From: Cytophagaceae bacterium
GTDB lineage: Bacteria > Bacteroidota > Bacteroidia > Cytophagales > JAIYAX01
Direction of reading: 5' to 3'
Assembly: GCA_027488815.1 (NCBI GenBank)
Contig: JAIYAX010000025.1
Span: 62,001-126,000, forward strand
DNA: 64,000 bases
Below the pieces are notes generated by a model. It ran no database searches, was not told the origin of the DNA, and worked only from the letters and a program-made list of their open reading frames with translations. Position numbers and translations under genes: made by a program. Shown in pieces: positions 14,937-18,825 of this stretch. Numbering within the stretch: the first letter of the stretch is position 1; each line of letters starts with the position of its first letter.

Positions 14937-15689
14937 ATGAGTATGGAGCAGAAAAACGGCTGGGATGCCAAGGCCCTCGAAGGTCCCAAATCAAGGTGGA
15001 AAGAATTTGTATTTACCCTTCAGGTGATGAGGGAGTTTATCAAGGGCTTTCGGGCATTTCATTTTCTGCCCCCCTGTGTGACCGTCTTTGGCTCAGCACG
15101 ATTTGCTGGTGAACATGACTACTATCAAAAGGCACGCAGGATGGGTGCCGGGATCAGCGAATTGGGCTATACCGTGATGACAGGTGGTGGGCCGGGTATC
15201 ATGGAAGCCGCTAACCGGGGGGCCAAAGAGGCAGGAGGACTTTCAGTTGGCTGCAACATTATACTGCCTCAAGAGCAGGGACATAATGCCTACATGGATC
15301 ACTTCACCACATTTCACTACTTTTTTGTACGGAAAGTAATCATGTTTAAGTATTCCTATGCTTTTGTCATTTTCCCAGGAGGGATGGGAACTATGGATGA
15401 GATGTTTGAAGCATTAACCCTGATCCAGACCGGCAAAATATCCGGCTTTCCTGTGATTGTCATGGGAGGGGAATATTGGCAAGAGCTGAAGTTGTTTCTG
15501 GACAGAATGGTACAGGTAGGGACTATTTCCAAACAGGATTTGTCACTGTTGTTGTTTACGGACAGTGAAGAGGAAGCTCTGCAATATCTTAGGGAACATT
15601 CGGTAAACAAGTTCCAGCTTGGCCGTAGCGGAAGGTTCACTCCATTACGCTGGCTTGGGGAGCGTTTGGGGGTGGGTAAAGCTGCTTAA
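14937..15689 (+). CDS. LOG-family nucleoside-monophosphate phosphoribohydrolase
   Basis: This 250-aa Rossmann-fold protein belongs to the TIGR00730/LOG group, which cleaves the N-glycosidic bond of (often N6-modified) AMP. The diagnostic motif PGGMGTMDE is at about residues 146-154, and the upstream segment VMTGGGPGIMEAANRGA is at about 80. The N-terminal extension of about 40 residues and the FRAFHFLPPCVTVFGSAR start fit the longer bacterial subgroup. Whether it makes cytokinin-like bases or only degrades AMP cannot be told. It is convergent with the DUF2452 gene and overlaps it by 4 bp. Confidence 0.92.
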   Translation: MSMEQKNGWDAKALEGPKSRWKEFVFTLQVMREFIKGFRAFHFLPPCVTVFGSARFAGEHDYYQKARRMGAGISELGYTVMTGGGPGIMEAANRGAKEAGGLSVGCNIILPQEQGHNAYMDHFTTFHYFFVRKVIMFKYSYAFVIFPGGMGTMDEMFEALTLIQTGKISGFPVIVMGGEYWQELKLFLDRMVQVGTISKQDLSLLLFTDSEEEALQYLREHSVNKFQLGRSGRFTPLRWLGERLGVGKAA

Positions 15690-16147
15690 ATAGTCAGGTC
15701 TTCGTCAGCTTGCAACACATCCCAGGTATGGTCAGCAAGTAGTTTTACGGTTGCCATAAAATGCCTGTCACCTTTGCTTCGTCCCCATTCACCGGGCCCA
15801 ATCAGCGATAGAAAATAGCTCCCTTCGGATCTGGAATAAAGATGATATACCTGTCCAATAAGTGGTTCAAAACCAATCGCAGCTTCATAAATCCGGTAGG
15901 AGAGGGCCGTACGCCTTTGAATAGCTCTGGCCTGAGAGGCCAATAGCTCAATCTGTTGCTGGATTTGAAGCAGTTGCATATCCGTTTGCTGCTCCATAGC
16001 CTTCACCGCTCGGCCTTTGATCTTACCGGTATCTTCAGGGCGGATTACGACACCACCTACGGTATGTGCATAGGGCAAAAGCCCCGGCATGTCGGTGATT
16101 TTACTGGCATCTATAGGATTATGGAGTTCTTCCAACTGCTCTGTCAT
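15686..16147 (-). CDS. DUF2452 domain protein
   Basis: This 153-aa cytoplasmic protein is of unknown function. I recognise it as DUF2452 by the N-terminal NPIDASKITDMPGLLPYAHT, the RAVKAMEQQTDMQLLQIQQQ helix and the carboxyl segment SLIGPGEWGRSKGDRHFMAT. The middle is helical and glutamine-rich, perhaps a coiled coil. It lies 26 bp downstream of the KdsC-like gene on the same strand and could be the last cistron of the KDO operon, but that may be only proximity. Confidence 0.85.
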   Translation of the reverse strand: MTEQLEELHNPIDASKITDMPGLLPYAHTVGGVVIRPEDTGKIKGRAVKAMEQQTDMQLLQIQQQIELLASQARAIQRRTALSYRIYEAAIGFEPLIGQVYHLYSRSEGSYFLSLIGPGEWGRSKGDRHFMATVKLLADHTWDVLQADEDLTI

Positions 16148-16172: not shown

Positions 16173-16898
16173 TTATTGTTCTTCAGGTACCTGAATCAGG
16201 CCTTCTTCGGTGACTTGATGAAGGGTACAGGCAACTTGTTTTCTCCTGCTGAAGTAGTCTTTAAAGTCTGTATCCAAATTCATGCGTGAGCTGATGGCAC
16301 GATCGTATTGCCCGGCTACTCCCAGCAACATTTCACAGCCTTCACGCAGGCCACCATGGTAGCCGCTGAAGCCGGTGATATAGTCTGCCCATCCGCTTTG
16401 CCTGACTTTTCGGCTAAGCAAGGGGCTGCCGCCTCTTCCGATCATGACTCTTACTCCAACCATCGAAGCTACTCTCAAGTCAAGAATATCGTCAAAGAAG
16501 TAGGCCACATGACGAGGCTCTATTTTGTAATGGTAACAGAGGTGGTGGATCGCCTGCATTTTATCGGCACAACGAACATAAATCGAATTCAGGTTTTCTC
16601 TGTTGGCCCAATGAATGGCTGAAGGGTTACGCTCACCGGTGATGATGGCCGTTACCGGAAGTTCTCCATATTTGAGCCAATGCCCAAACCGAAGCATATT
16701 GGTTCCCATACTGTCCACTTCTGAAAATGGACTGCCCTCTTCTCCACCCTTAAACCCGGCATTAAATACACCGTCCCAGTCAAAGACGTAGGCCTTAACT
16801 TCTGACAGTTTCTCCAAAATCACAGAAGGAGAGTTGACCCATTCCCCTCCTACGTTTTTAAAGACCTGTTCGATCTCAAACAGATGGGCTGAAGTCAC
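16173..16898 (-). CDS. KdsC-like HAD phosphatase (probable KDO-8-phosphate phosphatase)
   Basis: This 241-aa HAD-superfamily phosphatase has all four catalytic motifs: DWDG with Asp40 and Asp42, the motif II threonine in ITGER (Thr87), the motif III lysine in DKM (Lys113), and the motif IV acidic group FFDDILD (Asp136, Asp137, Asp140). The overall spacing, and the late segment YHGGLREGCEMLL, resemble KdsC and acylneuraminate 9-phosphatases. Compared with plain KdsC it has about 30 extra residues at the N-terminus and a 40-residue tail, and the usual Gly of GDDxxD is Phe. Its start overlaps the transaldolase-CBS stop by 4 bp and kdsA is two genes upstream, so dephosphorylation of KDO-8-phosphate is the natural inference. 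Confidence 0.85.
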   Translation of the reverse strand: MTSAHLFEIEQVFKNVGGEWVNSPSVILEKLSEVKAYVFDWDGVFNAGFKGGEEGSPFSEVDSMGTNMLRFGHWLKYGELPVTAIITGERNPSAIHWANRENLNSIYVRCADKMQAIHHLCYHYKIEPRHVAYFFDDILDLRVASMVGVRVMIGRGGSPLLSRKVRQSGWADYITGFSGYHGGLREGCEMLLGVAGQYDRAISSRMNLDTDFKDYFSRRKQVACTLHQVTEEGLIQVPEEQ

Positions 16899-17914
16899 AC
16901 CGAGGTCTTGTTCATGTCCTGAATATCCAATACTCCGGCAAGCTTGCCGTGTTCCATCACGAGGATATTGTCAATCTGATGTGTTTTGAAAGCCTGCTGA
17001 GCTTCATAAAGCAAGGCATCGGAGTCGATGGTTACCGGTGTGCGGTAGTTGAATTCGGTCATTTTTCTGGACAAGGCCTCTTTACCGGATTCCTGGATTG
17101 CTCTCCTGAGGTCTCCATCGGTAAACACACCCATGACCTCGCCATTTTCGTTGAGAACAGTAACGCAGCCAAAGCCACCCTCCGTCATTTTGATGATCGC
17201 ATCTGTTAAGGTTTGCTGTACCCCAACAGTTGGATTGCCTTTGCCCATCACCTGCTTCACTTTTACGGTCATCAGCTTGGTATGCTCAAAGAACTGCTCA
17301 GTACCGAGGGTAGTGAAATTGTTTTCGGTCAACTGACGAATAATTTTGTAGGGTGCTGTTATGGTATGCACTCCTATGTTGATGGCATTGCGCACATGCT
17401 CCACATTTCTCACGGAAGAGAACATGATTTTGGTATTGTAACCATAATAGTTGACTGCCTGAACACACTGCTCTACCAGCGTAAGGGCATCATGACCCTG
17501 ATCTTGTAGTCTGCCTACCAATGGACAAACGTAGGTAGCTCCCGCTGCCATCGCCATGTACGCTTGTTGAAGCGTGTAAACCAGGTGCACATTGACCATG
17601 ATCCCTTCATCCGTGAGCTTTTTGCAAGCCTTTACTCCTTCTAGGGAAACGGGGATTTTAAAAACGGACTTTTTAATGTCAAGACCCATTTGGATTTGCC
17701 GATGGGCTTCTTTGTAGATTTCATCGGCTGTTTCTCCAAGGGCTTCGACCTGCAAAACGGGTACAATTCCAGCCAGCTTGAGGATAAGTGAGTCCACATC
17801 AGTCACTCCTTGGCGATGCATGAATGTGGGAGTAGTTGTAAGTCCGGCTAAAAAACCGAGTTGAAAGGCCTCTTCGATTTCTTTGAGGTCGGCTGAGTCA
17901 AGATATAACTCCAT
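16895..17914 (-). CDS. Transaldolase/fructose-6-P-aldolase-like protein fused to a KdsD-like CBS pair
   Basis: The chain is 339 aa. Residues 1 to about 215 are a TalC/FSA-type transaldolase barrel (LYLDSADLKEIEEA, AGATYVCPLVGRLQDQGHD) with Asp6 and the Schiff-base lysine kept (Lys86 in FKIPVS). Three active-site positions differ from the family: the conserved Asn of TTNP is Thr28 (TTTP), the Thr of the NVT strand is His110 (NVHLVY), and the Tyr/Phe after the PxV strand is Leu. Residues from about 220 to 335 form two CBS motifs with VMGVFTDGDLRRAI and AGVLDIQDMN, very like the CBS tail of arabinose-5-phosphate isomerase KdsD. The gene sits between kdsA and the KdsC-like gene. Domain identities are clear; the reaction is unknown. 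See the findings. Confidence 0.9.
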   Translation of the reverse strand: MELYLDSADLKEIEEAFQLGFLAGLTTTPTFMHRQGVTDVDSLILKLAGIVPVLQVEALGETADEIYKEAHRQIQMGLDIKKSVFKIPVSLEGVKACKKLTDEGIMVNVHLVYTLQQAYMAMAAGATYVCPLVGRLQDQGHDALTLVEQCVQAVNYYGYNTKIMFSSVRNVEHVRNAINIGVHTITAPYKIIRQLTENNFTTLGTEQFFEHTKLMTVKVKQVMGKGNPTVGVQQTLTDAIIKMTEGGFGCVTVLNENGEVMGVFTDGDLRRAIQESGKEALSRKMTEFNYRTPVTIDSDALLYEAQQAFKTHQIDNILVMEHGKLAGVLDIQDMNKTSV

Positions 17915-17935
17915 AAGAAGGGTTTTGCGGTTGAA

Positions 17936-18772
17936 TTAAGCTCTGTATTTTACTTCTACCTGATGAATTTCAATCAGGGGTTTTAAAAATTCTTCCAGGT
18001 CATAGACGCACAACTGACTTGCCGCATCGCATAGTGCTTTTGCGGGTTCAGGATGCGTTTCGATGAACACTCCGTCCACACCTGCTGCAACTCCTGCTTT
18101 GGAGATGGCCGGAAGGAATTCTCTGGCCCCACCTTTGGCATCGGCGGAGGGTATCCCATACTTACGGATGGAGTGGGTAATGTCAAACACCACAGGGTAG
18201 CCTATGTTTTGAAGATGGTAAAAACTTCTAGGGTCAACAATCAGGTCGTTGTATCCAAAAGTGTAGCCACGTTCAGTCAGGATAATATTTTCGTTAGCGC
18301 TGGTTTCCAGCAACTTTTGCACCGGGTGTTTCATGTTTTCCGGAGCGAGGAACTGACCATGTTTCAGGTTGACTACCTTACCGGTGTTTCCGGCTGCAAC
18401 CACCAGTGTCGTTTGCATGCATAGGTAGGCAGGGATCTGCAAAACATCAACCACCTCAGCCGCTGCTGCTGCCTGATCGGGATAGTGAATATCTGTAAGT
18501 AAAGGGAAGCCAAATTGTTTCTTGACCTTCTCCAGCATCTTCAAACCTTCGTCCAATCCCGGCCCATCGTAGTACTTCACGGAGCTACGGTTATCTTTTT
18601 GAAAAGATGATTTGTAAATGACCGGGATGCCTAGTTTTAGAGAGACCTCTGCAAGTGTTTCAGCAGTACGCATCATCACCTGCTCTTCTTCCACCACACA
18701 AGGTCCTGAAATGAGAAAGAGCTGGTCAGCGCCGCAATTTACCTGGCCTACTTGTACCTTTTTTTTCGACAT
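17936..18772 (-). CDS. kdsA: KdsA, 3-deoxy-8-phosphooctulonate synthase
   Basis: KdsA condenses phosphoenolpyruvate with D-arabinose 5-phosphate to form KDO 8-phosphate for the LPS inner core. The 278-aa barrel has the PEP-site segment KSSFQKDNRSSVKYYDGPGL, followed by LTDIHYPDQ, LVVDPRSF-like (LIVDPRSFY), VVFDITHS and the late FIETHPEP. The N-terminal GPCVVEE motif holds the cysteine expected of metal-dependent KDO8P synthases, as opposed to the Asn of the metal-free enterobacterial type. I start it at the ATG at 18772; an upstream in-frame start at 18820 adds 16 unlikely residues. It is the first gene of a three-gene operon with the transaldolase-CBS and KdsC-like genes. Confidence 0.95.
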   Translation of the reverse strand: MSKKKVQVGQVNCGADQLFLISGPCVVEEEQVMMRTAETLAEVSLKLGIPVIYKSSFQKDNRSSVKYYDGPGLDEGLKMLEKVKKQFGFPLLTDIHYPDQAAAAAEVVDVLQIPAYLCMQTTLVVAAGNTGKVVNLKHGQFLAPENMKHPVQKLLETSANENIILTERGYTFGYNDLIVDPRSFYHLQNIGYPVVFDITHSIRKYGIPSADAKGGAREFLPAISKAGVAAGVDGVFIETHPEPAKALCDAASQLCVYDLEEFLKPLIEIHQVEVKYRA

Positions 18773-18825
18773 GGGTCTCGATTTTGCAGCGCAAATATCG
18801 GAATTTAACCCATTGTGCAAAGGTC

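Follow-up and report, generated by a model that had tools for sequence, protein, structure and literature searches.

A transaldolase-CBS fusion protein as a likely replacement for KdsD in the KDO pathway of Bacteroidota

We suggest that a protein combining a transaldolase-family barrel with a CBS pair takes the place of KdsD as a non-homologous enzyme under CBS control, likely supplying D-arabinose 5-phosphate (A5P) for KDO synthesis; the product A5P, the chemistry, the CBS ligand and the activity itself are all inferred. In most Gram-negative bacteria the outer membrane cannot do without KDO, and textbooks give the formation of A5P by KdsD as the step that opens the pathway. The fusion gene was detected in a Cytophagaceae bacterium, in a window of 64,000 nucleotides (the whole stretch of DNA analysed, from contig JAIYAX010000025.1). 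The minus-strand gene order is kdsA, fusion, kdsC-like (Table 1). The gap between kdsA and the fusion gene is 21 bases, and the fusion stop codon overlaps the start codon of the kdsC-like gene by 4 bases (GTGA); the three genes form a tight operon. The kdsA open reading frame is 17936-18820 on the minus strand when counted from the TTG at 18820, with the likely start at the ATG at 18772.

Table 1. Features of the KDO operon, with positions in the window
Feature	Position	Strand	Evidence
kdsA (KDO8P synthase, distinct subtype)	17936-18772	-	TIGR01362 match; subtype signature; separate clade
Transaldolase/FSA-like barrel and CBS pair fusion, 339 aa	16895-17914	-	ORF, Pfam, TIGR00393, AlphaFold model
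Fusion barrel domain, residues 3-220	17255-17908	-	Pfam boundaries; alignment with E. coli FsaA and own transaldolase
Fusion Lys86 codon	17657-17659	-	Same alignment with FsaA and own transaldolase
Fusion CBS pair, KdsD type, residues ~215-339, FTDGDLRR motif	16898-17272	-	TIGR00393, PDB CBS pairs, CBS profile
kdsC-like gene (divergent KdsC-like HAD phosphatase, 241 aa)	16173-16898	-	Profile scores, nearest structures, catalytic residues

The preliminary description had placed a KdsD-type CBS pair on a transaldolase/FSA barrel between kdsA and a KdsC-like phosphatase, and this held by Pfam, TIGR00393, the PDB CBS pairs and the open reading frames. The domain make-up is shown directly: within a single open frame, Pfam detected TAL_FSA at residues 3-220 (4.7e-37) and two CBS domains (1.4e-16). 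TIGR00393 (KpsF/KdsD) is the best model for the CBS pair, with 73.7 bits over residues 215-329, exceeding any other CBS-containing family by far. The nearest solved CBS pairs are three from KdsD proteins (4o9k, 3k2v, 3fna), and the fusion CBS profile scored KdsD proteins at 42-85 bits; this kinship was judged from profile scores only, without a tree. The C-terminal part thus meets the KdsD description. The SIS isomerase domain required of KdsD is not met, the Pfam scan finding none and TIGR00393 covering the CBS part only. The AlphaFold model of the fusion has a mean pLDDT of 90.3, and the nearest folds to its barrel are the transaldolases 1vpx (T. maritima; TM 0.92 by target) and 3r8r (B. subtilis). 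Membership of the PF00923 superfamily is met by the Pfam match and the presence of the Schiff-base Lys and Asp6. The narrower assignments are not met: the FSA model TIGR00875 gave 155.5 bits vs a cut-off of 245.95, and the transaldolase equivalog models gave 58 vs 396 (TIGR00874) and 68 vs 282 (TIGR02134). Full-length fusions with 56-75% identity are present in many independent genomes, and the fusion is therefore neither chance nor an assembly artefact; conservation is higher in the barrel than in the CBS part.

The active site was compared in 110 fusion sequences (some being the same genome reached twice), aligned with E. coli FsaA and the organism's own transaldolase. Asp6, Glu57, Lys86, Arg135 and Ser167 were invariant in 110/110. 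Glu57 aligns with the transaldolase Glu and with Gln59 of FSA in two alignments; Asn108 and Arg169 were also marked, and Asn108, like Glu57, is as in transaldolase. Three positions were invariantly changed (110/110), Asn28 to Thr28, FSA Thr109 to His110, and FSA Tyr131 or transaldolase Phe to Leu132, while FSA Ala129 or transaldolase Ser was replaced by Cys130 in 105/110. The earlier claim that Asp6 and Lys86 are kept and that Thr28, His110 and a Leu replace Asn, Thr and Tyr/Phe was confirmed. In FSA, the DHA donor is bound by Asn28, Asp6 and Ala129, protons are shuttled by Tyr131, and Gln59, Thr109 and Tyr131 keep the catalytic water in place (PMC13259622). This water triad is not met by the fusion, which has Glu57, His110 and Leu132, and only Glu57 is kept from the transaldolase donor-site set Asn28/Glu57/Thr110/Phe132. 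The invariant replacement of these donor-site residues (N28T, T109H, Y131L) makes DHA transfer an improbable chemistry for the fusion. With the Tyr131 shuttle and the water-holding Thr109 replaced, efficient aldol chemistry would need a new acid/base, for which His110 is proposed. Imine chemistry has thus likely been kept and the DHA site rebuilt, as inferred from sequence alone.

The fusion and KdsD were found to be largely mutually exclusive. We searched 98 genomes of the order, each with the fusion, KdsD and KdsA; 80/98 have kdsA, with the fusion only in 34, KdsD only in 44, both in 2 and neither in 0 (Fisher p 1.4e-20, with no correction for phylogeny or relatedness). The two genomes with both belong to one genus, and each has two kdsA genes, one adjoining the fusion and the other near kdsD. 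Both states were detected within each of seven families (f4, f5, f8, f10, f18, f19, f20), so several independent swaps are needed. Further fusion genomes were reached through the named loci (n=50, few overlapping with the 98), and 42/50 are without KdsD. Six of the remaining 8, which have the fusion and KdsD, carry both KdsA types; the other two, G506 and G528, have the fusion-type KdsA only, at the threshold used. An assembly gap as the reason for the missing KdsD was rejected, because the same pattern recurs in the 34 fusion-only genomes of the order, almost all of them >=93% complete, and in those 42 fusion genomes. Across the phylum, only a minority of genomes have the fusion (6/395 sampled). 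At least 549 loci with fusion relatives are present in the GTDB species collection, mostly in Bacteroidota and some in Desulfobacterota; the top 80 were retrieved, each of them fusion-like, with 64-75% identity.

The source genome (assembly 99.6% complete) needs A5P yet lacks KdsD, the absence being shown by sequence. It encodes one KdsA over the cut-off, KdsB over the cut-off and WaaA. No KdsD was found in it, by inspection of its SIS proteins and by TIGR00393, whose best match is the CBS pair of the fusion itself; a normal kdsD in this genome was among the outcomes set beforehand as refuting the idea, which therefore stands on this point. The SIS proteins comprise GlmS (with both SIS domains in a single frame), two small GmhA-type proteins, a phosphoglucose/phosphomannose isomerase and a MurQ-like protein. 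One of the GmhA-type proteins is over the GmhA cut-off, and the other is below it and encoded beside a GHMP-type kinase gene. A CBS-less isomerase of the Bacteroides fragilis type was considered among them and rejected, since both small SIS proteins match GmhA and the best TIGR00393 match is the fusion CBS pair. An ordinary transaldolase is encoded on another contig. We found no canonical KdsC in the source genome, the operon phosphatase being its sole KdsC-like match, and no KdnB at E<=1e-70.

The neighbourhood of the fusion was analysed in 80 named loci, the denominators being loci with enough flank. The gene immediately upstream of the fusion is kdsA in 57/75 loci, and the one immediately downstream is the kdsC-like gene in 62/74; kdsB is near the fusion in 19 of the 80, and homologues of kdnA/kdnB adjoin the operon in ~19/80. 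The latter were matched to the PDB sequences of KdnA (5k8b, 3.5e-137) and KdnB (5k8c, 5.5e-127), which, by the names of these entries, we take to be the enzymes converting KDO to 8-amino-KDO (Kdo8N), acting on KDO itself. The recurrence of kdsA, the kdsC-like gene, kdsB, KdnA and KdnB places the operon in KDO synthesis. A fusion lying mostly away from kds genes would also have counted against the idea, and this is not what was observed. Canonical kdsB (by its cut-off) is present in all fusion genomes and WaaA in nearly all, and KdnB was detected in 27/37 fusion genomes of the order vs 3/45 KdsD-only genomes. No glycolaldehyde- or pentose-phosphate-producing partner recurs among the neighbours of the fusion loci.

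The fusion has co-diverged with its two partners, as the sequences of both show. The fusion-type KdsA passes the KDO8P-synthase cut-off (TIGR01362, 327.6 vs 314 bits), has the K-x-N-R-S motif (as KDNRS) and forms a separate, well-supported clade in the tree. Its subtype signature, D-N-R-S at 76-79, Y132, M135, R219 and Y221 (numbered from the TTG at 18820), is invariant in fusion operons. The changes relative to E. coli KdsA are A61D, F117Y, R120M, K139H and Q205R, invariant or nearly so, and thus A61, R120 and Q205, which we take to be A5P-contacting sites, are replaced by D, M and R. No confirmation of A5P contact by R120 and its neighbours was found in the open-access literature searched, where we also found no KDO8P-synthase Arg106 papers and no Kdo8N/KdnA papers. 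The KdsC-like phosphatase is below the KdsC cut-offs (63.8 vs 208 for NF007019; 36.1 vs 106.95 for TIGR01670); its nearest solved structures are KdsC. It keeps the HAD catalytic Asp pair, Lys and DDxxD as D40, D42, K113, D136, D137 and D140, matching D32, D34, K102, D125, D126 and D129 of E. coli KdsC, respectively.

Two genomes of one genus, G028 and G058, bear on the substrate of this KdsA. Both have kdnA-kdnB followed by the fusion-type kdsA and kdsC-like genes without the fusion, and encode elsewhere a KdsD that retains the five residues assumed, by reference to E. coli KdsD, to be catalytic. kdsB is next to this cluster in G028 and ~5 kb away in G058. The KdsA proteins of both fall inside the fusion-type clade and occur together with KdsD in the absence of the fusion, which makes A5P the most likely substrate of the fusion-type KdsA. 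The simplest account of these genomes, considered likely, is that one and the same compound is supplied by KdsD and by the fusion. The claim of the preliminary description that a CBS-regulated source of A5P is possible is supported by these two genomes and by the complementarity of the fusion and KdsD, the activity remaining inferred.

In the proposed pathway, the transaldolase-family barrel would supply A5P to the adjacent KdsA, the KdsC-like phosphatase would then remove the phosphate, and KdsB would use the resulting KDO, which in many relatives may also go via KdnB/KdnA towards Kdo8N. The CBS pair would give feedback control, the most likely ligand, by inference, being a CMP-sugar end product. 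As a committed guess, Lys86 would form an imine with C1 of an aldose, not with C2 of DHA, and His110 would fill the vacated hydroxymethyl pocket and act as acid/base. The enamine derived from the aldose may be reprotonated on the opposite face, converting ribose 5-phosphate to A5P with Asp6, His110 and Glu57 as putative acids/bases. Alternatively, an enamine from glycolaldehyde may be added to glyceraldehyde 3-phosphate, giving A5P. We can hardly decide between the inferred epimerisation and aldol routes; the former is slightly favoured because free glycolaldehyde, which is limited in ordinary cells, is scarce. A Lys imine on a ketose C2 cannot directly yield A5P, and a route from ribulose 5-phosphate would therefore have to proceed non-covalently through an enediol. 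The aldol route, put forward in the preliminary description, has a precedent, FSA having been used as an A5P aldolase with glycolaldehyde and glyceraldehyde 3-phosphate in an engineered pathway (PMC9947464), but it is one of several possibilities and its physiological glycolaldehyde source is problematic. Several points speak against the A5P role: there is no biochemical evidence, the glycolaldehyde supply is not obvious, and G506 and G528 have both enzymes but the fusion-type KdsA only. The changes of KdsA at the sites taken to contact A5P also suggest that the acceptor might not be A5P, though G028 and G058 argue for A5P.

In a rival reading, the barrel makes some aldose other than A5P, KdsA is specialised for that aldose, and the product of the operon is a KDO-like ulosonic acid. 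It is supported by concerted change at three steps, the five KdsA substitutions, the barrel donor site and the phosphatase. We regard it as unlikely: G028 and G058 have this KdsA, the KdsC-like phosphatase and KdsB alongside an intact KdsD but lack the fusion, and the canonical kdsB and the WaaA of the fusion genomes, together with KdnB/KdnA acting on KDO itself, also speak against it. A5P could otherwise come from a side activity of GlmS or a GmhA-type isomerase, leaving the fusion as a regulatory or side-reaction protein. Rescue of an E. coli A5P-isomerase mutant has been shown for GFAT, the eukaryotic homologues of GlmS (PMC11301363), and GlmS and the two GmhA-type proteins are present in the source genome. 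However, nearly all bacteria have GlmS, and E. coli is one of them, yet its A5P-isomerase mutant still depends on A5P; GlmS therefore does not explain why KdsD loss tracks fusion gain. The barrel, moreover, keeps an invariant catalytic Lys and is better conserved than the CBS part, so this explanation also appears improbable.

The least credible explanation sees in the fusion merely an ordinary transaldolase or FSA that carries a CBS pair and lies in the operon by chance. The fold and Schiff-base residues are of the transaldolase type, but the equivalog cut-offs were failed and the donor site is invariantly changed, ruling out ordinary transaldolase as the family assignment. A normal transaldolase coexists with the fusion, and the fusion tracks KdsD absence and the kds neighbourhood across Bacteroidota and Desulfobacterota. 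The replacement of KdsD thus remains our preferred reading.

Compared with KdsD/KpsF/GutQ (SIS and two CBS; TIGR00393), the fusion has the same type of CBS pair, a similar length (~340 aa) and, judged by complementarity and by the neighbouring kds genes, the same role in the genome, whereas its catalytic domain is an unrelated transaldolase-family TIM barrel in place of SIS. With FsaA and the small transaldolases (PF00923; 1l6w, 1vpx, 3r8r) it shares the barrel fold, the Schiff-base Lys, Asp6 and the phosphate-site Arg/Ser, and differs from them in the Thr, His, Cys and Leu described above, the C-terminal CBS pair and the location in a KDO operon. The Bacteroides fragilis API, which is without CBS, and eukaryotic GFAT (PMC11301363) also depart from the standard SIS-CBS KdsD, but these are still SIS-domain enzymes. 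The Shewanella Kdo8N pathway (KdnB 5k8c, KdnA 5k8b) is similar in the kdnA/kdnB homologues recurring beside the fusion operon, and differs in that KdnB was not detected in the source genome. No report of a transaldolase-CBS enzyme in KDO synthesis was found in the open-access literature searched, subscription papers being outside its scope. What is new here is likely a known KDO pathway with a new enzyme at the A5P step, the activity of which is inferred.

A bolder reading, which taken as one joint claim could as well fail as hold, is that the redesigned Schiff-base site either epimerises an aldose at C2 or forms one by an aldol reaction. This would be the committed first step, under CBS control, of a KDO/Kdo8N pathway that runs in parallel and has KdsA and phosphatase subtypes of its own; the enzyme would have displaced KdsD repeatedly in Bacteroidota and moved as a cassette to Desulfobacterota. 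If the aldol route is right, the fusion would be a natural A5P-forming catalyst useful for synthetic glycolaldehyde pathways. If the replacement of KdsD is true, a second, unrelated enzyme family would act at the A5P step in hundreds of species, filling a hole in pathway reconstruction for many genomes that now seem to be without the first KDO enzyme. It would also be a new reaction for the transaldolase family and a case of the regulatory domain being retained while the catalytic domain was swapped.

The fusion, the transaldolase-type barrel carrying a KdsD-type CBS pair that was proposed from sequence to replace KdsD, is absent from two genomes of one genus (G028, locus L159; G058, locus L160), which have the gene order kdnA-kdnB-kdsA-kdsC with kdsA and kdsC of the fusion-operon type. 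The kdsB gene adjoins this group in G028 and lies ~5 kb off in G058, and KdsD is encoded elsewhere in both genomes, providing a natural test for the substrate of the fusion-type KdsA. In one genus (G068, G095; loci L171, L172, L012, L013) two complete alternatives co-occur, canonical kdsA with KdsD and fusion-type kdsA with the fusion.

The entire cassette was detected in Desulfobacterota or 'Deltaproteobacteria' genomes (loci L129, L155, L121, L134, L097, L108) with proteins 65-69% identical to the window protein, which suggests inter-phylum transfer. Mis-binned contigs could alternatively explain the copies in MAGs; L155 is a complete chromosome record. Neither of the two proteins flanking the window operon, of the DUF2452 and LOG families, was seen again beside the fusion elsewhere in the neighbourhood comparison.

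KdsD-like CBS pairs were also observed in ~346-aa frames of G006 and G008 beside a DAHP/NeuB-like synthase and a KdsC, likely representing a putative nonulosonic-acid cluster with a CBS-bearing protein. Seven small genomes (G006, G012, G025, G041, G070, G083, G097) have no kdsA above the cut-off, despite kdsB and WaaA matches.

Coordinates of the features discussed
Feature	Location	Strand
DUF2452 protein, operon flank	window 15686-16147	-
LOG-family (lysine decarboxylase-like) protein, operon flank	window 14937-15689	+
KdnA/KdnB homologues	L138:1778-3013	
KdnA/KdnB homologues	L153:294-1385	
Region with KdsD-like CBS frame	G006 C2:85157-87002	
Region with KdsD-like CBS frame	G008 C1:342775-344623	

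Homologues of KdnA and KdnB, the enzymes converting KDO to 8-amino-KDO (Kdo8N), adjoin the fusion operon at the tabulated and further loci. KdnB presence follows the fusion-type KdsA across the order, suggesting that Kdo8N may be common among Cytophagales-type bacteria.
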